Shown here: in pieces, positions 5,847 through 15,666 of the stretch
Numbering within the stretch: position 1 is the first letter of the stretch
How the letters are laid out: every line of letters starts with the position of its first letter
Origin: an uncultured Lachnospiraceae bacterium
Lineage (GTDB): Bacteria; Bacillota; Clostridia; Lachnospirales; Lachnospiraceae
DNA length: 64,000 nucleotides
Direction of reading: 5' to 3'
Assembly: GCA_930972465.1 (NCBI GenBank)
Contig: CAKNHF010000010.1
Coordinates: 1 to 64,000 of the forward strand
Notes under the pieces: generated by a model
The model's database searches: none
The model's input: the letters and a program-made list of their open reading frames with translations, nothing else
What the model was told of the DNA's origin: nothing
Program-made: the position numbers and the translations under genes

Positions 5847-5990
5847 TATAGAAATTTATAAGAATATGTTGCCTGTGCATATTGAAGAACTTTTTGTAAA
5901 AACAATGAAAATTTTGCTGATAAAGCTGTTCTGTACAAAAAAATCATGATAGAATGGGAGCATCCGGCGGACAATACCGGATACTTTTGT

Positions 5991-6035
5991 GAATATTCTG
6001 AAAACAGCGGCGCATGGGGGCCTGACCCCTTTGCA
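5991..6035. repeat. Hairpin-bearing dispersed repeat, copy 1
   Basis: This 45-nt stretch matches 63565-63608. The shared left part is GAATATTCTGAAAAC and the shared right part is GGGGCCTGACCCCTTTGCA, with small differences between them. The GGGG-CCTGA-CCCC hairpin is intact here but its outer stem is imperfect. It ends 25 bp before the MoxR start codon. Confidence 0.7.
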
Positions 6036-6059
6036 GCGAGAATGGAAAGGGGAGAAAGT

Positions 6060-7013
6060 ATGGCTGGACAGGAACGTTTGGCGTGGCAGGTCATTGATGA
6101 GGTGGAAAAAGCAGTGGTCGGCAAGAGGGATATTCTGACCAAAATTATGATGGCGATTCTTGCCGGAGGACATATTCTTATAGAAGATATCCCGGGAACC
6201 GGAAAGACAACGATGGCTCTGGCGTTTTCGAAAGCCATGGGGCTGGCGGTGAACCGGGTTCAGTTTACCCCTGATGTGCTTCCTTCGGATCTGACCGGAT
6301 TCACGATATACCGAAAGGAGACATCTGAGTTTGTTTACCAGCCCGGGGCAGTGATGTGCAATCTCCTGCTTGCAGATGAGATAAACAGGACTTCGCCGAA
6401 GACGCAGTCGGCGCTTCTTGAGGTAATGGAAGAGAAGCAGGTGACTGTTGACGGCATCACGCGGCAGACCGGAAGCCCGTTTATCGTGATCGCTACAGAG
6501 AATCCGGCGGGCTCGGCAGGGACTCAGCTTCTCCCGGAATCTCAGCTTGACCGTTTTATGATCTGTGTCAGTATGGGGTATCCGTCGGTGGATGAAGAGA
6601 TGGAGATCCTCAGAAGGAGCCGCGACAGCGTAAGTGCGGCGGATCTGGTACGCCCGGTACTGGATGCCTCGGCGCTCCTGACGATGAGACGTATGACGGA
6701 AGAAGTGTTCGTGCATGAACTTATCTACAGATATATTGCGGAACTGGCGAAAGCGACCCGGGAAAATGAATGGGCCGAACTGGGAGTGAGCCCGAGAGGA
6801 ACCGTAGCGCTCACATCGATGGCAAAGGCATGCGCATATCTGAAGGGGCGGGCTTTTGTCATACCCGCTGATGTGGCAGAGGTATTTCCCTGCACAGTGT
6901 CTCACAGAATCTACCTGAACATGAAGGCAAAGGTGGGACATATAAAGACGGAAGAGGTGGTGCGCAGGGTGCTGGAGGAAGTTCCGGAACCTTCTGTCAG
7001 GAAAAGGCGGTAG
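6060..7013 (+). CDS. MoxR-type AAA+ ATPase
   Basis: The 317-residue ATPase has Walker A (DIPGTGKT, 43-50), Walker B (LLLADE, 102-107) followed by INRTSPKTQSALLEVMEE, the sensor segment ATENPAG, and LPESQLDRFM, all diagnostic of MoxR (AAA_3 with C-terminal lid). MoxR ATPases act as chaperones that activate or assemble partner complexes, typically with a DUF58 protein encoded next door, as here. The start at 6060 is preferred because of the GGGGAGAAAG site; an upstream in-frame ATG at 5946 would translate through the dispersed repeat. The DUF58 gene follows after 4 bp. Confidence 0.92.
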   Translation: MAGQERLAWQVIDEVEKAVVGKRDILTKIMMAILAGGHILIEDIPGTGKTTMALAFSKAMGLAVNRVQFTPDVLPSDLTGFTIYRKETSEFVYQPGAVMCNLLLADEINRTSPKTQSALLEVMEEKQVTVDGITRQTGSPFIVIATENPAGSAGTQLLPESQLDRFMICVSMGYPSVDEEMEILRRSRDSVSAADLVRPVLDASALLTMRRMTEEVFVHELIYRYIAELAKATRENEWAELGVSPRGTVALTSMAKACAYLKGRAFVIPADVAEVFPCTVSHRIYLNMKAKVGHIKTEEVVRRVLEEVPEPSVRKRR

Positions 7014-7017
7014 AGCG

Positions 7018-8073
7018 ATGTTCGGTAGAATCACAGGATATCTGGCTGTCCTTCTGCTCACGGTATACATGTATTTTATGTATAATGATACGGTGATTTC
7101 CGGGATACTGATATTCATCCTTTTTTATCCGCTCTGCTCGGCATTCTGTCTTCTGTCAGTGAGAAACAGTATTGTCCCGGATCTTGAGAGAGTGCCTGCA
7201 ATGGGAGAAAGCGGCAGACCGGTAAAAGCGGATATCGTACTGGAAAACCGGTCGCGGATTTTCAGTATACGGTATGAAAATACAGTGTCTCTGAAGTACA
7301 GCTTTGATAAAAAGAAAAGAAAGAATAGATATCGCGGCGTGCTCGGGCCGGGAGAACATGAGGACTGCTGGTGCAGATTTGAGACCGACGTATGCGGGGC
7401 AGTGGAACTGGAACTTGAATCTGTGAGAATATATGATCCTCTGGGAATCTTTTATATAAGGAAAAGAATACGCCGGAAAACCAGGGTAAAAATTATGCCG
7501 GAATTCAGGCTTATGCCACTGGAAATCACAAAAAAAACACGGGATTTCCAGGCGGATGCCCCTGAGTATTCTGACAAAAAGAAAGGAAATGATCCGTCAG
7601 AGCTCTATCAGGTCAGAGAGTACCGCATTCAGGATTCTCTGAAAGATATTCACTGGAAAATGAGCGCAAAAGAAGATCAGATTATGATAAAAGAACGGGG
7701 ATTTCCCCTTGGATGCGCGGTGCTGATCTGGATCGACTTTCCGGAGAAAGAAAAGTCCGCGGAGGGGTTCTCTGCGCTTCTGGATACGGCGGCGTCGCTG
7801 TCAATTACTCTGGTTGAGTATAAATGCATTCATATGGCCGCCTGGTATGATGAGAAGGAAATGCAGGTGGTGCGCCGCAGGATACGGGATGAGGAAAGCG
7901 CTTGTGAATTTATATGGGAGCTGATGGATCTGCAGCCGTACCGGGACGGGGAGAAGGCGGAAATATGCCGCAAAGAGGCGTTCCGCGGACAGGAATTCAG
8001 CAGTGTGGTAACCTTGGACGGAAACGGCATGGTAAAGAAGGACGGAAGTGTCCAGGAATTTCTGAGGCTTTGA
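7018..8073 (+). CDS. DUF58 domain protein
   Basis: The 351-residue protein starts with two closely spaced membrane helices (about 5-50), followed by a cytoplasmic or external beta-rich region and the DUF58 core. The signature REYRIQDSLKDIHWKMSAK near 198-216 matches the family pattern RxYxxGDxxxxIxWxxSA, and the rest has a von-Willebrand-A-like arrangement. It is the standard partner of MoxR. Translationally linked genes on both sides (4 bp and 27 bp) indicate one operon with the transglutaminase. Confidence 0.88.
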   Translation: MFGRITGYLAVLLLTVYMYFMYNDTVISGILIFILFYPLCSAFCLLSVRNSIVPDLERVPAMGESGRPVKADIVLENRSRIFSIRYENTVSLKYSFDKKKRKNRYRGVLGPGEHEDCWCRFETDVCGAVELELESVRIYDPLGIFYIRKRIRRKTRVKIMPEFRLMPLEITKKTRDFQADAPEYSDKKKGNDPSELYQVREYRIQDSLKDIHWKMSAKEDQIMIKERGFPLGCAVLIWIDFPEKEKSAEGFSALLDTAASLSITLVEYKCIHMAAWYDEKEMQVVRRRIRDEESACEFIWELMDLQPYRDGEKAEICRKEAFRGQEFSSVVTLDGNGMVKKDGSVQEFLRL

Positions 8074-8100
8074 GAAAAGGCTGCCGGAGGAAGGGCGGAA

Positions 8101-10179
8101 ATGAAGAAAAGAGATTCAGGAATAAAGATATACAGAGACAGAAAAGGGCAAAAAGGATACCGCGGCATTTCCATGTGGATTTTTCAGTCGGCGGCCGTCT
8201 GGTTTCTGGCTGCGGCCTGGTGGAATGCCATCCTTTCCGTATTTCCGATAGAGACAGGGGGAGGAATGGTTTATCTCTGGCTGGCAGTGCTTACGGCGGG
8301 GCTTGTGCTGCTGCATCAGAAGACGGGCGGATGGACGGTGCTTCTTGTGCTTGCCCTGACAGGAGTCCTTGTGTGGATCAGAAGAGACGTATTCACAGAG
8401 TATATAGAGAGCATAAGCAGGAATATTGCAGGGATGATATCCCCCGGAAATGGGGAAGAAGCGGCGGCATGGCATATGTCCGGACTTTTTACACGTCTGA
8501 ATGGGGAGGTCGGAGCAGGACTGACCGCGTCAGTGCTTTCAGTTCCGTTTCTTGAAATATGGATTATGGTTCTGAAAACGGGGAAAGGGAAACTGGCGGC
8601 AGGTGTTACGGCGGCTGTTCCGTTTTTCTGTTCTGCCGCCGCGGGATATTTTCCTCCGGAGATTCCTGCGTGGCTTCTGGTTCTGGCAGCCTGCGTTTAT
8701 TTTGCCGCCGGGACTGCAGGAGGAGAAAACTCAAAGCATTTTCTTTCACAGTGGGGCAGATGTATGATTGCGGCGGCTGTTCTGTGCGGAGCTGTGGTTC
8801 TGGCGGCCGGCGCGGGAAAGCTGCTTGATAGCGGGAGAGATGTTCCGGGAAGCTTTTATCAGGAAGCCCGGTCCACAATCCGGGCAGGAGTTATAGAACG
8901 GATACGGGAATCTGCTTCCGGAAGAGATGCAGAGCCGGAACAGACTGAGAACACGGATCCGGGAGCAGAAGAAGCGGACAGACAAGTGAGAAATTCCGGG
9001 GACACACAAGAAGAACCGACGGATACAGGCAGGGAACAGCTTTTGGGAGAGGAACAGCTTCCGTCCGGAAGCGGTATGGAGGATCTCCGTTCTCTTTCTG
9101 CTTTTGTTCCGGAAGAAGGAATCGGGGAGACTGTAACACTGGATGAACTGCCGGAGAGTACGGTGTACCTGCCGGAAAGATATGGGATTGTTTACAGCGG
9201 AGGAGCATGGTCTGATATGGAGGACATGCAGGAAAACGCCGATGAGATTCTGGAGAACTGCAGGGAGTATCCGGAAGGACTGGAACGTCTGGAAGATCTG
9301 TGCAGCGGATGGGATGTCAGTTCCTATGAAAATGTGGGAGAAAGGATTGACTCTGAACTGTCCGCAAGAGCGGTCTATGATACGAACCCCGGGACAACGC
9401 CTTCGGATCAGGATTTTGTCGAATATTTCCTGTTTGAAAGAGGGCGTGGATTCTGTGTTCATTTTGCCTCTGCCTCTGTTCTGCTTTACCGGATGTGCGG
9501 ATATCCGGCCCGGTATGCGGAAGGCTACGCAGTCCCGGCATCTGCTTTTTCTGAGAACGGAAACGGCGGCTACACGGCACGGATAGACGGGAGCATGGGG
9601 CATGCCTGGTGCCAGGTATATGACAGCCGGACCGGAAACTGGATTGATGCGGACCATACCCCGGCGGCACCCCGGAGTCAGTTCAGTGAAGAATCCGGCG
9701 GGGCTGATAAATCAGAGACGGGAGAACGGCTTCAGAATACGGCCCTGTGGCGTGTCCTTACGGTGATCGTTATATGTGCGGCGGTTCTGATCGTGCTTTC
9801 TGCCGTGACGGCTGCGCAGGCGGCTGTCCGAAGAAAATATCTCAGAAAGCGGTTTGAAGAAACGGGTAACGGCAGAGGGATTCTGGCCATGTACGAAAGT
9901 ATTCTCAGGACGGCCCGATACCAGGGGACAGAAACAGGTGATATCTTTGATGCGCATACAGCGGAGATTCTGGAGTGCGCATATCCCGAGATCAGCGGAC
10001 GGGAGTGGAAATGGATATATGAGAAAGTACTGGAGAGTATGTTCTATCACCTTGCGGATGAGAAGGCGGCGGCCGGAGAGATGAAAGTGCTTTATAAGAG
10101 ATTTGTGGAGTCGGCAGAGGTCAGGATGAGCAGAGGACAGAGACTGATAATGAAGTATATCCGGTGCTGTGCGGTCTGA
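8101..10179 (+). CDS. Membrane transglutaminase-like protein (TgpA-type)
   Basis: The 692-residue protein has about six N-terminal membrane helices (residues 20-245), a long acidic linker (about 270-340), a transglutaminase-core domain on the outer face and a C-terminal membrane helix near 547-570 followed by a cytoplasmic tail. The Cys-His-Asp triad is intact: C452 in RGFCVHFASA, H501 in GHAWCQVYD and D516 in NWIDADHTP. The MoxR-DUF58-transglutaminase order is widespread; the enzyme may be a peptidase, cross-linker or other cysteine acyltransferase, and its substrate is unknown. Confidence 0.87.
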   Translation: MKKRDSGIKIYRDRKGQKGYRGISMWIFQSAAVWFLAAAWWNAILSVFPIETGGGMVYLWLAVLTAGLVLLHQKTGGWTVLLVLALTGVLVWIRRDVFTEYIESISRNIAGMISPGNGEEAAAWHMSGLFTRLNGEVGAGLTASVLSVPFLEIWIMVLKTGKGKLAAGVTAAVPFFCSAAAGYFPPEIPAWLLVLAACVYFAAGTAGGENSKHFLSQWGRCMIAAAVLCGAVVLAAGAGKLLDSGRDVPGSFYQEARSTIRAGVIERIRESASGRDAEPEQTENTDPGAEEADRQVRNSGDTQEEPTDTGREQLLGEEQLPSGSGMEDLRSLSAFVPEEGIGETVTLDELPESTVYLPERYGIVYSGGAWSDMEDMQENADEILENCREYPEGLERLEDLCSGWDVSSYENVGERIDSELSARAVYDTNPGTTPSDQDFVEYFLFERGRGFCVHFASASVLLYRMCGYPARYAEGYAVPASAFSENGNGGYTARIDGSMGHAWCQVYDSRTGNWIDADHTPAAPRSQFSEESGGADKSETGERLQNTALWRVLTVIVICAAVLIVLSAVTAAQAAVRRKYLRKRFEETGNGRGILAMYESILRTARYQGTETGDIFDAHTAEILECAYPEISGREWKWIYEKVLESMFYHLADEKAAAGEMKVLYKRFVESAEVRMSRGQRLIMKYIRCCAV

Positions 10180-10243: not shown

Positions 10244-10273
10244 TTGCCATATACTGTACAATGATGATATAAT
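10244..10273 (+). promoter_or_regulatory. Predicted promoter of the DUF5717-like operon
   Basis: -35 TTGCCA (10244-10249), 18-bp spacer, perfect -10 TATAAT (10268-10273). Confidence 0.6.
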
Positions 10274-10331
10274 TCATAGTAGCGTCTTTTTGCCTGCCGG
10301 CAGGGACAAGTATTATGAGTAGGTGACGGAT

Positions 10332-13300
10332 TTGAAAAATAAGATCAAACGTTTTGCAAAAGGGGATTTCCATATCCCGCAGCCGGAAATTATCTTTCCC
10401 GAAACCCATATTGTGATGAGGGTCGGAGAAGGAGAGGAATATAAAGGAAGCTTTTCGCTTCAGAATCAGGGAGAGGGAACGATAAGGGGACTGGTCTATC
10501 CGTCCTCGTACCGCGTTCAGTGCGCCGAAGAAGGATTCGACGGCAATCCGGTAAATATATATTATACATATGACGGAAGAGGGCTTGTGCCGGGGCATGT
10601 GGAGCATGGAAAATTCACCATTGTCTGCAACGGCGGCGAATTTGATATTGCCTTTACAGCCATCATTGAGAAGCCTTTTGTCATGACAAGCTACGGCAAG
10701 GTACAGAGTCTTGAGGACTTTAAAAAGCTGGCCTTCCGAGATGCGGCAGAGGCTGAGAAGCTGTTCAGATCCCGCGATTTTTATGAGATTCTGAAATATG
10801 AGGACATCCGCATCCAGGCTCTCTACGATAATATGAGAAAGTGGGAGCTTGATCAGCATGCCCTTGAGGAGTTCCTTGTAGGATGCAAACAGAAGGAAAA
10901 GATATTCCTTACTCTTGAAGAAGAGAGCAGGGCTTTCATCTCTCTTACAGAGGCAAGAAAAGAGACTTTTACGATCCGGAAAAACACATGGGGATACCTT
11001 GAGATCGATGTGAGAACAGAGGGAGATTTTCTCTATGTGGAGCATACACGCATCACGACCGAGGAATTCATCGGGAACTCATACCGGCTGGAGTATTTCA
11101 TCACGATGGAGAATCTTCATGCGGGAAGCAATTTCGGACAGATCATTCTGGAGACTCCTTACGAGACTCTTACCTATGAAATCGTAGTTGAGAAAGATAT
11201 CCGCAGGGATGAGGAACGCAGAAACCGTGAGAGAGACTTCAGCGGGATCATAAAGGGCTATCTGGATTACGAGGGGGGCAGGACGGATCTGAATACATGG
11301 ACAGAGGATGCCCTTAAAAGAATCGGACGGCTGAGGGAGGCGGATGAGAGAAATGAATATTTTCTGCTTGCCCATGCTCATATCTGTCTGATCGGAGGAA
11401 GGACGGATGAGGCAAAATGGATTCTGGAATCATATAATTATAACCGTTTTGCCATCGGCAAAGACGTGGAGCTGAGTTCTTACTATCTGTATCTTACGAC
11501 TCTTCTGAGCAATGATACGATCGGTCAGCGGAGAGTGGCGGAGGAGCTGTCAAGATCATTTATGAAGCATCCGGACAGCTGGCTGATTCTCTGCATGCTG
11601 GTGGAAGTTGACTCGGAATATAAGATCTACAGTGAGCGGCTGCGCGCCCTTGAGAAGCAGTTTTATGAAGACCGGTCTCACAGTATCTGGTTCTATCTCC
11701 AGGCTTTCCGGTGTTTCCGGGAGAAGAGTTCGTCTCTGAAGAAACTCGGAATGTTTGAAGTGCGGGTTCTACTTTTTGCGGTAAAATACAAACTTATGAC
11801 AAAGGAGCTGGCGCTTTATACAGCCAATCTCGCCAGCCAGATGAAGGTGTTCGACAGGCATCTGTATAAAGTGCTTGTGCTGGCATACGACATGTATGAG
11901 GAATCGATGATCCTTACGGCGATCTGCACCCTCCTCATCAAAGGAAACTGTATGGACAGCTGTTATTTCAAATGGTACGAGAAAGCGGTGGAATCAGAGC
12001 TTAAGATAGCGCAGCTCTATGAGTATTACATGGCTGCGGCCAGGCCGGATCAGTTCCATAAGCCGCTGCCCCGGTCGGTATATCTGTATTTTATGCACGG
12101 GAACTCTCTGGATTATCATAAATGTGCATTTTTATATTCGAACCTGATCACGTATGAAGATGAGTCGAGCGAGATCTATGCCCATTACCGTGATGAGATG
12201 GAGGCATTTGTCTGGAATCAGCTGGAGAGAAGAAATGTGGACGAGCAGCTCCGCATTATCTATAAGAGGTTTGTGGTCGAGTCTTCATTGAATTCGGAGA
12301 GGGTGAAGGCGCTTTATGATATCTGCCATGCCTACTGGATTACCACAAAGGTTCCCAACATGAAATACGTCCATGTGATCGCGGAGGACGGCACGATCAC
12401 GCAGAAAGCGGCGTATCTGGAAAACGGAGCCAGAGTATTTCTGTATTCGAAGACAGACCGTCTTGTATGGGAGGCCCGGGACGGGAGACATTATACAGAC
12501 TCCATCCCCTATGAGAGCAAGCGGCTCTTTTATGAGCTCAGATATATGGACATGTGCCGGAAATATCTGAACGGCATGATGAGAAGCGGCAGGGTTGAAG
12601 AAGAGGAAGAGCTTACGCTTGAAACCGTCAGGGCGAAAGGACTTGAGAATTTCCCGGAGGACGAAGTGTTTACGCTCTGCAGCAAGACCATCCGTGAGAA
12701 CAATTACGAGAATGATGATTTCCTTACGTATGTCTGCTTTGACCTGTTTAAGAAGCATCAGTATGATAAAGTGATACTTACTTATCTTGCCAATTATTAC
12801 TGCGGTGCCACGCTTGATATGAAACTTCTGTGGAAAGAAGCGCGGGACTATGAGGTGCATACGCATAAACTCGGCGAGAGAATCCTGACACAGATGCTGT
12901 TCTCGGAAGAGCTGTTCCAGGAATCTCAGATTTTCGAGGAATACTATGAGGAGGGAGCTTATTTCCGGCTCCAGCAGGCATATCTCGCATATGTGTCAAG
13001 GGAATATGTCGTAGAGGACAGAAAGATCGGAAGAAATATCATAGACATCATATGCAGGGAATATGAAAAGGGAGAAGAGACGATTGATGTCTGCAAGCTG
13101 GCTGTGCTTAAATATTACTCCACCCGGGAATATAATTCAAAAACCCGGAAGACGCTGAAAAAATTCCTTCAGGAACTGTGCAGCAGACAGATTTATTTCC
13201 CGTTTTTCCTCGCTTATGAGAAGGAATGGCTGATCGAGCTTCAGCTGTGGGATAAAGTCCTGATTGAATATAAGGGACAGAGAGGAAGCAGGGTTATGCT

Positions 13301-13625
13301 CTATTATCAGCTTCAGAAGGGAGAGCGGGAGCCGGCCGACTATTCAACAGAGATACTTACTCCGATGTATGAGAATCTTTATGTGAAAAAGTTTGTACTG
13401 TTTGCCAATGAAAAGCTGAAATACTATTTCAAGGAGACCATTGACGGCAATTCCTACAGAAGCGACAAAGAGACATGCGTCAGGGATACCGAGCCGGGAG
13501 AACCGGGAAGGTACGGCAGGCTCAATGATATTCTTCTCGAGAAGAATGAAAGAGAACGAGAGAGAAAGATGAAGGCATATGCTCTGGAGGACGCTCTTGC
13601 GGCGCATATGTTCGAACAGTATTAA
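10332..13625 (+). CDS. Giant DUF5717-like protein: two beta domains plus helical solenoid
   Basis: I recognise this as a DUF5717-type protein of Clostridia with no established function. The 1097-residue product has no signal peptide or membrane helix. Residues about 10-120 and 195-290 look like two beta-sandwich domains, each with a GxxYxGSFxLxNxG- or YFITMENLHAGSNFG-like strand pattern. From about 300 on it is a long run of amphipathic helix pairs of TPR/HAT type, ending in a charged Glu/Arg tail. TTG at 10332 is chosen over GTG at 10323 because AGGTGA lies 5 bp before the TTG. It heads a three-gene operon with an actin-like and a TPR-like protein, suggesting an intracellular scaffold or chaperone machine. 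Confidence 0.7.
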   Translation: MKNKIKRFAKGDFHIPQPEIIFPETHIVMRVGEGEEYKGSFSLQNQGEGTIRGLVYPSSYRVQCAEEGFDGNPVNIYYTYDGRGLVPGHVEHGKFTIVCNGGEFDIAFTAIIEKPFVMTSYGKVQSLEDFKKLAFRDAAEAEKLFRSRDFYEILKYEDIRIQALYDNMRKWELDQHALEEFLVGCKQKEKIFLTLEEESRAFISLTEARKETFTIRKNTWGYLEIDVRTEGDFLYVEHTRITTEEFIGNSYRLEYFITMENLHAGSNFGQIILETPYETLTYEIVVEKDIRRDEERRNRERDFSGIIKGYLDYEGGRTDLNTWTEDALKRIGRLREADERNEYFLLAHAHICLIGGRTDEAKWILESYNYNRFAIGKDVELSSYYLYLTTLLSNDTIGQRRVAEELSRSFMKHPDSWLILCMLVEVDSEYKIYSERLRALEKQFYEDRSHSIWFYLQAFRCFREKSSSLKKLGMFEVRVLLFAVKYKLMTKELALYTANLASQMKVFDRHLYKVLVLAYDMYEESMILTAICTLLIKGNCMDSCYFKWYEKAVESELKIAQLYEYYMAAARPDQFHKPLPRSVYLYFMHGNSLDYHKCAFLYSNLITYEDESSEIYAHYRDEMEAFVWNQLERRNVDEQLRIIYKRFVVESSLNSERVKALYDICHAYWITTKVPNMKYVHVIAEDGTITQKAAYLENGARVFLYSKTDRLVWEARDGRHYTDSIPYESKRLFYELRYMDMCRKYLNGMMRSGRVEEEEELTLETVRAKGLENFPEDEVFTLCSKTIRENNYENDDFLTYVCFDLFKKHQYDKVILTYLANYYCGATLDMKLLWKEARDYEVHTHKLGERILTQMLFSEELFQESQIFEEYYEEGAYFRLQQAYLAYVSREYVVEDRKIGRNIIDIICREYEKGEETIDVCKLAVLKYYSTREYNSKTRKTLKKFLQELCSRQIYFPFFLAYEKEWLIELQLWDKVLIEYKGQRGSRVMLYYQLQKGEREPADYSTEILTPMYENLYVKKFVLFANEKLKYYFKETIDGNSYRSDKETCVRDTEPGEPGRYGRLNDILLEKNERERERKMKAYALEDALAAHMFEQY

Positions 13626-13640
13626 GGAGGATGTCTTTCC

Positions 13641-14924
13641 ATGGGAGAAGGCAATATAATCGGATATGAGATAAATGAAAAGACATGCCAGATCAGCTAT
13701 TATAATGAACAGCAGATGGAACCGGAGACTCTGGAGGTAGATACGGATAATTATCAGATTCCTCTGATCATTGGAAAGCTGAGAGACACATGGGCTTACG
13801 GCAAGGAAGCCAAGAGACTTGTCTCAATAAAAGAGGGCTTTACTCTGACGCGGCTTCTGAGCAGGGCGCTGGCAGGAGATAAGGTGGAATTCGGGGAAGA
13901 GACGTATGACGCAGTGTGGCTTCTGTCACAGTTTATTCAGATGTCGCTGCAGGCATTCCCGAAGATCGACGGAATCGTTTTTACCGTTCCAACACTTACG
14001 GAAGAACTTGCACAGATGCTCAGAGGGATTGCGGTGCGAATGAATATCGACAAGAGACATATCTTCATTCAGGATTATAAGGAGAGTTACTGCAATTATC
14101 TGTTCTATCAGCCGAAGGAACTCTGGCAGTATGACGCTGCGCTGTTCAGCTGCGACAGGAATGAGATAAAGGCATATATGCTCAGACGGCTGAAACCCGG
14201 ACTGGGGGGAGGCAGAACGACTTTTGTGACTGTGGATGAAGTGGCCAGTGCCCATATGAAAGAACTGGCCATGGTCTATCCTGTGCTGAACGAGGATAAG
14301 GCGAAAGAAGCGGATGCCATGTTCTGTAAATTCATTGAGAGTGTGTTTGACAAGAGAATCGTGTCATCTGTCTTTCTCACCGGCGAAGGTTTTGAGAACA
14401 ACTGGTATCCGAAAGCGCTGAGAGTGCTCTGCAACGGACGCCGTGCTTTTATAGGAAATAATCTGTACAGCAAAGGGGCATGCTATACGGCTTACCGGAA
14501 GCTGTACATGCATATCGAGAACCCGGTCTATCTTTCAGAGGATAAGCTGACGGATCAGATTACTGTCAATATGCGCGTTGACGGACAGGAGATGTGGTAT
14601 CCCATTGTCTCCTGGGGAGCACACTGGTATGAATCAAACAATCAGTGGGAAGTGCTTATGGAGGATGTGGAAGATATAGAATTTCATGTTGAATCTCTGA
14701 TCCAGGGAACACTCAAGACAGAGAAAATATCTCTGGAAAAATTCCCGAAGAGAGCGGAATATTCCATGAGACTGCAGATAGAGACTCTGTTTCTGGATGA
14801 GAAGACCTGCAAGATCACGGTGAAGGATGTAGGATTCGGAGACTTTTTCCTTCCGACGGATTTTCAGGAGGAGAAGATTATTCACTTAGGAGGCAATGAT
14901 GGGAAATTTAATTCTTTGTCATGA
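13641..14924 (+). CDS. DUF5716-like protein with degenerate actin/Hsp70-like layout
   Basis: The 427-residue protein is probably a DUF5716-family member; the function is unknown. Its layout recalls actin/Hsp70 ATPases: an opening IIGYEINEKTCQISYY strand pair, a middle FTVPTL segment like the VxTVPA of Hsp70, ALFSCDRNEIKAYML where phosphate-2 would be, and SSVFLTGEGFENNWYPKAL like the adenosine motif. The usual DxGxx residues are missing, so ATP hydrolysis is doubtful. The last 120 residues form a beta-rich C-terminal domain resembling the Hsp70 substrate-binding half. It lies 15 bp after the giant gene and overlaps the next gene, so all three are translated together. Confidence 0.65.
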   Translation: MGEGNIIGYEINEKTCQISYYNEQQMEPETLEVDTDNYQIPLIIGKLRDTWAYGKEAKRLVSIKEGFTLTRLLSRALAGDKVEFGEETYDAVWLLSQFIQMSLQAFPKIDGIVFTVPTLTEELAQMLRGIAVRMNIDKRHIFIQDYKESYCNYLFYQPKELWQYDAALFSCDRNEIKAYMLRRLKPGLGGGRTTFVTVDEVASAHMKELAMVYPVLNEDKAKEADAMFCKFIESVFDKRIVSSVFLTGEGFENNWYPKALRVLCNGRRAFIGNNLYSKGACYTAYRKLYMHIENPVYLSEDKLTDQITVNMRVDGQEMWYPIVSWGAHWYESNNQWEVLMEDVEDIEFHVESLIQGTLKTEKISLEKFPKRAEYSMRLQIETLFLDEKTCKITVKDVGFGDFFLPTDFQEEKIIHLGGNDGKFNSLS

Positions 14925-15666
14925 CAAACATGCGACTCATCCCTATGAGATTACCAGGATACACTGCAGGATATTTACCATTGAAGAGCTCTGCTATTAT
15001 CTGTGCAATAATCTCTATCTGATTGACTATACGATCATGAATGAGCAGCTCTGCACCTGGCTGGAGGAAGAGATCGGCATGCCGGAACTGGCGGACAGTC
15101 TGCGGGATGTGCTTCGGCTGAGAGGGTCTGTCGAAAAATTCGTGCTTACGATTCTGAAGGCGTCCAAGATATACCGGGAGCCTCAGATGATACATATTCA
15201 GAATGTGCTGGAACATCTGAAGAATCAGAGAGATATAGAACGACAGAAATACAAGGCGGACAACCTGCTGGAGAGCGGTGAGATAGAAGAGGCTATCCTT
15301 GTGTATCAGACGATCCTGAATCAGGAGAAGGATGAGAGCGTGGACGAAAAGTTCTATGGGAAGATTTATGCCGGGCTTGGAGCGGCTTACGGACGGCTTT
15401 TCCTGTATCAGGAATCTGCGCGCATGTATGACAGGGCCTATCAGATCTGTGAGGACAGAGCGCTTCTGAAACCTTATCTCTATGCATCCTATAAATATAT
15501 GTCACTTGAAGAATTCCATATTCTGATCACGAAACATGATGATTACATGGAGGTAAATGCGCAGATGCGCCGGGAAATCGATGAGATCCGGAAAAATCTG
15601 CAGACAGATCCCACGCCTGTGCTTCTTGAAAAGTGGAAGAGGCAGCACAGAAGAAGCCATACCTGA
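14899..15666 (+). CDS. Small TPR-like protein of the DUF5717 operon
   Basis: The 255-residue protein is not firmly recognised. The first 90 residues are alpha/beta with a conserved-looking YEITRIHCRIFTIEELCYYL. From about 110 to 215 there are TPR-like helix pairs, best seen in ADNLLESGEIEEAILVYQTI and IYAGLGAAYGRLFLYQESA. No signal or membrane segment is present. It overlaps the end of the actin-like gene; AGGAGG is 5 bp before the second of two adjacent ATGs, so 14899 is preferred over 14896. The shared operon and solenoid architecture suggest it is a subunit of the same assembly as its two upstream neighbours. Confidence 0.65.
   Translation: MGNLILCHDKHATHPYEITRIHCRIFTIEELCYYLCNNLYLIDYTIMNEQLCTWLEEEIGMPELADSLRDVLRLRGSVEKFVLTILKASKIYREPQMIHIQNVLEHLKNQRDIERQKYKADNLLESGEIEEAILVYQTILNQEKDESVDEKFYGKIYAGLGAAYGRLFLYQESARMYDRAYQICEDRALLKPYLYASYKYMSLEEFHILITKHDDYMEVNAQMRREIDEIRKNLQTDPTPVLLEKWKRQHRRSHT

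Follow-up and report, generated by a model that had tools for sequence, protein, structure and literature searches.

An Hsp70-derived protein without ATP motifs in a conserved gene trio of Lachnospiraceae, possibly the remainder of a multi-Hsp70 operon

The stretch of DNA analysed here, called the window, comprises 64,000 nucleotides from an uncultured Lachnospiraceae bacterium (contig CAKNHF010000010.1 of assembly GCA_930972465.1). The assembly is of 2.8 Mb, and its closest named relatives are Mediterraneibacter and other Lachnospiraceae. The window carries a trio of genes, the first two of which code for DUF5717 and DUF5716 proteins. It is established by sequence, tree and predicted model that DUF5716 is of Hsp70 descent; it has lost the nucleotide motifs and the stretch that holds subdomain IIB, and has kept a domain of the type of the beta part of the Hsp70 substrate-binding domain (SBD-beta). 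In other families of the same order, a larger operon with several Hsp70 genes is present. The chances are about even that this operon represents an undescribed chaperone machine of one Clostridia order, made up of three ATPase-type Hsp70s (one of them vWA-fused), a pseudo-Hsp70, a GrpE fusion, MSP-like and solenoid scaffolds and a TPR adaptor. All the ATPases would have been lost in Lachnospiraceae, where a near-universal, ATP-dead trio would work free of nucleotide, with the ATP cleft rebuilt as a binding face. The trio and its promoter-like site are located as follows.

10244..10273, forward strand: promoter-like site, TTGCCA and TATAAT 18 nt apart, with TG before the second hexamer (11 of 12 positions matched)
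10332..13625, forward strand: gene 1, DUF5717, 1097 amino acids, proposed scaffold (open reading frame, Pfam PF18984 and PF18983, model)
13641..14924, forward strand: gene 2, DUF5716, 427 amino acids, pseudo-Hsp70 (Pfam, model, profile alignment, motifs, tree)
14896..15666, forward strand: gene 3, 256 amino acids, an N-terminal domain and weak TPRs (Pfam, hhalign)

The AlphaFold2 (AF2) model of DUF5716 has a pLDDT of 88 and a pTM of 0.86. In a structure comparison, it takes the Hsp70 fold over both the nucleotide-binding domain (NBD) and the SBD, with 390 residues aligned to DnaK 7kru_A at a root-mean-square deviation of 9.5, and the NBD is of the actin type. The original prediction had described gene 2 as having the domain order of actin and Hsp70 proteins, devoid of the ATP-binding residues, and the model and the motif comparison bear this out; the unrelated fold that it had named as evidence to the contrary was not seen. 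Three parts of the protein can be delimited.

13641..14510, forward strand: residues 1-290, Hsp70-type nucleotide-binding lobes without the IIB stretch and the ATP motifs (model, motifs)
14376..14483, forward strand: residues 246-281, former adenosine-binding block (densest in invariant columns)
14526..14885, forward strand: residues 296-415, SBD-beta-like domain (model, hhalign)

Where Hsp70 has GIDLGTT, DLGGGT and GGST, the DUF5716 of the window reads GYEINEK, SCDRNEI and GEGF, and the phosphate-1, phosphate-2 and adenosine motifs are all missing from it. Also missing is subdomain IIB, which we take to lie between the phosphate-2 and adenosine motifs in Hsp70; the span between these two sites measures 77 residues, against 142 in the DnaK of the same genome. 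The SBD-beta domain is present, as both the fold and the profile alignment pass through it, its peptide binding being only predicted. The model has no helices of the SBD-alpha lid, and only 181 residues follow the adenosine motif as against 275, a span that is also short (141-201) in the types A, B and C of the larger operon described below. As these defining features are wanting, DUF5716 is classed as Hsp70-derived and not as an Hsp70 chaperone. Residues 246-281 hold 14 of the 37 invariant columns of alignment A4, and none of 2000 shuffles matched that in any 36-residue stretch. Since the dead pocket is thus the best-conserved part of DUF5716, its sequence conservation suggests that a new binding face may have formed there. 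In a single database protein of 555 amino acids (P0090), perhaps an assembly join, DUF5716 is fused with PF17802.

The larger operon was studied at 20 places with DUF5717, picked by hand from an order-wide search, 19 of which belong to other families of the order. In 17 of these 19 (L139-L151, L153, L155, L156 and L158), no more than 1.5 kb separates the DUF5717 gene or genes from a gene for Hsp70-A with intact ATP motifs; at L150, the DUF5717 side was placed from genome-search coordinates. No Hsp70-A was found near the DUF5717 gene of L152. In a complete run, a beta-domain gene and a solenoid gene (split or fused) are followed by Hsp70-A, the GrpE fusion, B, Hsp70-C, Hsp70-D and the TPR gene T, and a membrane-type protein Y also occurs in the run at three loci. 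The GrpE fusion is a helical protein with GrpE at its C-terminus; PF01025 was matched in three of the four proteins scanned (E 1e-14, 3e-13 and 5e-12), and not in that of L145. B is a DUF5716-like pseudo-Hsp70, present in 14 of the 17 loci (in L146 through the extension L169), and in the other three (L142, L153 and L156) the contig ends before its position. In the one Hsp70-D scanned (L159, 4500-6590), a vWA domain takes the C-terminal place where DnaK has its SBD-alpha lid (PF25106 E 1.6e-10, PF00092 E 3e-7). The DUF5717 and TPR genes of the trio have their homologues in the scaffold and TPR genes of the large operon, the pieces of which are spread over different contigs in some genomes. In genome G548, the T and Hsp70-D genes (L160, 8205-9231 and 9340-11384) are each split into two frames, through decay or sequence error. 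A separate case is L157 (3-4705, genome G702, labelled as the other family f129), which has the Lachnospiraceae-type trio instead of the large operon; its DUF5716 groups inside Lachnospiraceae in the tree, with L014 at 100/100, and the trio there is due to either transfer or contamination.

The link between B and DUF5716 is seen in profiles, motifs and tree alike. The profile of Lachnospiraceae DUF5716 aligns with that of the large-operon Hsp70s A, C and D over 412 columns (hhalign probability 99.0, E 5.7e-18). Both PF18980 and PF00012 are matched by the B proteins of L141 (1.8e-25 and 1.9e-16) and L145 (4.8e-18 and 5.7e-12), and also by the C protein of L145 (6.9e-11 and 1.4e-60). The ATP motifs GxDxGTT, D(F/L)GGGT and GG(S/T)(S/T) are kept in all 16 rows of A, C, D and DnaK. 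Among the ten B rows, GxDxG is found in eight, D(Y/F)G at phosphate-2 in seven (GGGT in none) and the GG of the adenosine site in seven, and in the ten DUF5716 rows neither phosphate-2 nor the adenosine-site GG is found at all. Judged by these alignments, the ATP motifs decay stepwise, from intact in A, C, D and DnaK through partial in B to lost, or nearly so, in DUF5716. Similarly, the stretch holding IIB measures 132-151 residues in ten of ten B rows versus 68-77 in ten of ten DUF5716 rows.

The tree was built from 44 hand-picked proteins and rooted on DnaK, leaving out the row K_L185 (a wrong longest open reading frame with a very long branch). In it, DUF5716 is monophyletic (100/97), the B of L139 comes next (100/99), and the two together form a group at 100/100, in which DUF5716 is nested inside B; a clade of DUF5716 with DnaK is rejected (p-AU 1.7e-5). 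L139 has both a GrpE-type gene and the IIB stretch, and both are gone from the Lachnospiraceae operon. In DnaK, GrpE binds subdomain IIB, and the joint loss therefore makes sense, albeit as a single event only.

How far the two parts of the system travel together was assessed in 174 genomes of the order outside Lachnospiraceae, tallied by hand, with Hsp70-A counted as present at a best E <= 1e-80. In 67 of them, both DUF5717_N and Hsp70-A were present, in seven only one of the two and in the remaining 100 neither; Fisher's test, with kinship left out of account, gives p 2e-39. Of the 69 genomes counted positive for Hsp70-A, 68 reach E 1e-145 or better and the remaining one, a fragment, 5e-81. 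No orthologue of Hsp70-A was found in 22 Lachnospiraceae genomes, the best matches there (E 1e-43 to 3e-50) being at the level of DnaK. Orthologues of Hsp70-C were likewise not found in 100 Lachnospiraceae genomes (best 196 bits, three without any match, against at least 668 for full-length orthologues), nor those of Hsp70-D in 60 (best 271 bits, one without a match, against 983 or more). The GrpE fusion is not found in the Lachnospiraceae operon, to which the search for it was confined. Thus, what seems to have happened in Lachnospiraceae is a loss of the ATPases of the multi-Hsp70 machine, with its ATP-dead core retained.

Further afield, none of 299 genomes drawn from the phylum has an Hsp70-A orthologue (best 195 bits), and PF18980 was matched in four of them, a figure that reflects that draw. 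Among 245 genomes drawn from the class, DUF5717_N exceeded the cut-off only in the nine that belong to Lachnospiraceae, with one other genome below it. In the other families of the order, PF18980 is matched in 67 genomes at E <= 0.001 and in 60 over the cut-off (89 of 196 in all), partly through Hsp70-C and not B. The genome of the window also has a second DnaK-like gene (L189, G000:C19, 11920-13677) of 585 amino acids, about 60% identical to the DnaKs of three Lachnospiraceae genomes. It is flanked by a PurF-like gene and an Mrp-like ATPase (both named from sequence) and lies some 11 kb from a dnaK-dnaJ pair, the dnaK of which is apparently cut across contigs C40 and C19.

Within Lachnospiraceae, 244 of 250 genomes have PF18980 (198 of 201 among those with a completeness of 90% or more and a contamination of 5% or less), and it is a single match in 239 of the 244. 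The three genes stand next to one another at 111 of 113 Lachnospiraceae loci, which exceeds chance: at 78 of the 80 named ones and at all 33 from the genome search, which include the window itself (L007); both sets of loci may share species. The lack of conservation in other genomes, which the original prediction had set out as an outcome against it, was thus not seen in this survey of neighbourhoods. The two misses are L088, where the contig ends, and L102, where no TPR gene was found within 3 kb. At L102 (11300-14358), a metagenome-assembled Lachnospiraceae genome, two response-regulator-like open reading frames (named from sequence) stand behind DUF5716. A purB-like gene lies within 10 kb of the trio in 60 of the 67 loci with room for it; the place of the trio is therefore rather constant, as one expects of genes that are inherited vertically as a set.

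The names DUF5717 and DUF5716, already given to genes 1 and 2 on inspection of the letters, agree with Pfam, in which gene 1 matches PF18984 (DUF5717_N, E 3e-212) and PF18983 (DUF5717, E 1e-101) and gene 2 matches PF18980 (DUF5716_C, E 1e-100). Neither protein got a name in the NCBIfam scan. The model of gene 1 (pLDDT 83, pTM 0.43) is divided into the following domains.

10407..10670, forward strand: residues 26-113, PapD/MSP-like Ig sandwich (model)
10908..11195, forward strand: residues 193-288, second beta domain (model)
11211..13238, forward strand: residues 294-969, TPR-like helical solenoid (model)
12330..12524, forward strand: residues 667-731, beta domain interrupting the solenoid (model)
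13254..13481, forward strand: residues 975-1050, C-terminal beta domain (model)

The two N-terminal beta domains and the long helical solenoid foreseen for this protein are thus recovered, and the two further beta domains (667-731 and 975-1050) had been missed. It had also been called soluble, and the hydropathy scan agrees, as it found no transmembrane-like stretch in any of the three trio proteins. When the DUF5717 profile was compared with PDB sequences, seven matches were obtained (best E 0.06), six of them to one protease family over 318-375, and they were not credited. In the divergent Lachnospiraceae genome G495, L154 (8387-10948) codes for a DUF5717 of 853 amino acids; as the profile matches it only from position 279, it is without the N-terminal beta domains. 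It still adjoins DUF5716, TPR, purF and purB-like genes. Gene 3 had been taken for a TPR-like protein. Its only Pfam matches are weak TPR ones below the cut-off (TPR_12 E 0.005), and it is homologous to gene T of the large operon (hhalign probability 99.8, E 1.4e-27, 202 columns).

With respect to function, we lean slightly towards the operon being an ATP-independent core left from a multi-Hsp70 machine, the complex holding clients or passing them to DnaK. The three products would form one cytoplasmic complex, with DUF5717, through its MSP/PapD-like beta domains and solenoid, as the putative scaffold and the TPR protein as the candidate adaptor. DUF5716, presumably locked in one state, would be the binding subunit, its SBD-beta and its rebuilt ATP cleft serving as docking faces. 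The complex may then hold clients or deliver them to the housekeeping DnaK, in likeness to Ssz1 and Hsp110, which work beside active Hsp70s. An unlikely, though not far-fetched, variant is that DUF5716 is an Hsp110-like regulator, which binds the NBD of the housekeeping DnaK as an exchange factor or brake, specificity being conferred by the other two proteins. The original prediction had left the choice between a pseudo-Hsp70 chaperone and a cytoskeletal machine; the descent from Hsp70 without ATP motifs stands, and the cytoskeletal part is rated low. A filament-forming, actin-like protein with scaffolds would fit the actin-type lobes of the model, but it is at odds with the absent ATP motifs and IIB stretch and with the SBD-beta-like domain, which makes this the least probable of the readings considered. 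MreB, ParM and FtsA are absent among the best 50 structure matches listed; Hsp70 chains fill that list, and so it does not disprove other actin folds.

It may also be asked whether the trio is ancestral and was expanded by the other families with Hsp70 copies. The root of the tree is set by the outgroup and some branches are long, which leaves room for such a course, but in the DnaK-rooted tree DUF5716 is nested in B, most B proteins keep traces of the ATP motifs, and the IIB stretch lost in DUF5716 is kept in ten of ten B. An ancestral trio is accordingly held to be highly improbable. Somewhat less improbable, yet still doubtful, is a signalling or conflict system linked to the membrane or envelope and similar to the GTPase/Hsp70/GrpE/FNIII-TPR systems (Kaur et al. 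2020). Hsp70, GrpE, a degenerate Hsp70, a beta domain with repeats, vWA and, at three loci, a membrane protein are all shared by the large operon. However, the GAP1-N2 domain was found in none of the 14 genomes searched, 12 of which have the large operon or parts of it, and in Lachnospiraceae the trio occurs in almost every genome, mostly close to purB-like genes, in contrast to mobile conflict genes. In PADLOC, only low-scoring matches came up: the three ATPase Hsp70s matched PDC-M61B (E 8e-9 to 5e-5) and the TPR protein matched PDC-S28 (E 1.5e-4).

Several observations weigh against the reading of the trio as an ATP-free core left from a larger machine. PF00012 is directly matched by none of 80 Lachnospiraceae DUF5716 members (E 0.01), and a search of PDB sequences with the profile of these 80 stays empty up to E 1. 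The B that is closest (L139) and the protein of the divergent L154 match PF18980 but not PF00012. The window protein itself found nothing credible in PDB by phmmer (best E 1.3). GxDLG at phosphate-1 persists in two of ten DUF5716 rows (L012 and L154). The direction, reduction and not expansion, depends on the rooting with DnaK, the branches of B and DUF5716 being long and the rows hand-picked. Outside Lachnospiraceae, DUF5717 occurs without Hsp70-A in five genomes (G559, G649, G697, G702 and G721) and Hsp70-A without DUF5717 in two (G596 and G659). The pTM of 0.43 makes the arrangement of the DUF5717 domains uncertain, and the trio complex, its clients and its contact with DnaK we only infer.

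In the window, the tight spacing and good promoter ascribed to the trio at first sight hold: a gap of 15 bp separates genes 1 and 2, gene 3 begins 29 bp before the end of gene 2, and, besides the match given above, four promoter-type sites occur in the scanned region versus a mean of 1.2 in shuffles. Gene 1 starts at the TTG at 10332, and an alternative in-frame GTG at 10323 would give 1100 amino acids. Upstream, on the same strand (5946-10179) and 152 bp from gene 1, lie a MoxR ATPase, a DUF58-like protein (below the cut-off of the DUF58 profile) and a membrane transglutaminase. These three were considered as members of the system and rejected, because only 18 of the 69 loci with room have MoxR and transglutaminase close to the trio, which has a promoter-like site of its own. 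Downstream of the trio are a solute-binding protein, an ABC permease and ATPase (named from sequence) and a purF-like gene.

Hsp70s are usually viewed as ATP-driven machines, and nearly every Lachnospiraceae genome searched keeps an Hsp70-derived protein without ATP motifs. The relatives of this dominant gut family preserve intermediate stages of the loss of these motifs. The trio is thereby a testable case of a chaperone becoming a protein that binds or scaffolds without ATP, and a likely origin can be offered for DUF5716 and DUF5717, families of unknown function, and for the multi-Hsp70 operon.

Among known families, the two large trio proteins are, by profile, members of Pfam PF18980, PF18983 and PF18984, the descriptions of which give unknown function and do not name the Hsp70 origin, the operon or its larger relative. 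DUF5716 resembles Hsp70 (PF00012, DnaK) in its NBD lobes, its SBD-beta fold and, through B, its position in the tree; it differs in having no ATP motifs, IIB stretch, SBD-alpha lid or direct profile match. Ssz1 has a J-protein as its partner, in a stable heterodimer on the ribosome, and a J domain was not among the Pfam matches of the trio proteins. Ssz1, of the yeast ribosome-associated complex, further differs from DUF5716 in keeping its ATP site (the title of 4gni has it bound to ATP). No published account of the trio or of the multi-Hsp70 operon was found in the literature searched, which was without most subscription papers and bioRxiv. The nearest published system found is the Hsp70/GrpE theme of the GTPase-centric GAP1-N2 systems (Kaur et al., eLife 2020, PMC7159879), with Hsp70, GrpE, a second Hsp70 without the peptide-binding domain and a fusion of beta repeats with TPR. 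In 14 control genomes, the GAP1-N2 domain protein was found in one, Corynebacterium glutamicum. Compared with those systems, the trio is without an active Hsp70 and GrpE, neither GrpE nor PF00012 being matched by Pfam. The large operon shares with them an Hsp70, a GrpE and a beta-repeat/TPR protein, and differs in that its degenerate Hsp70 keeps SBD-beta.

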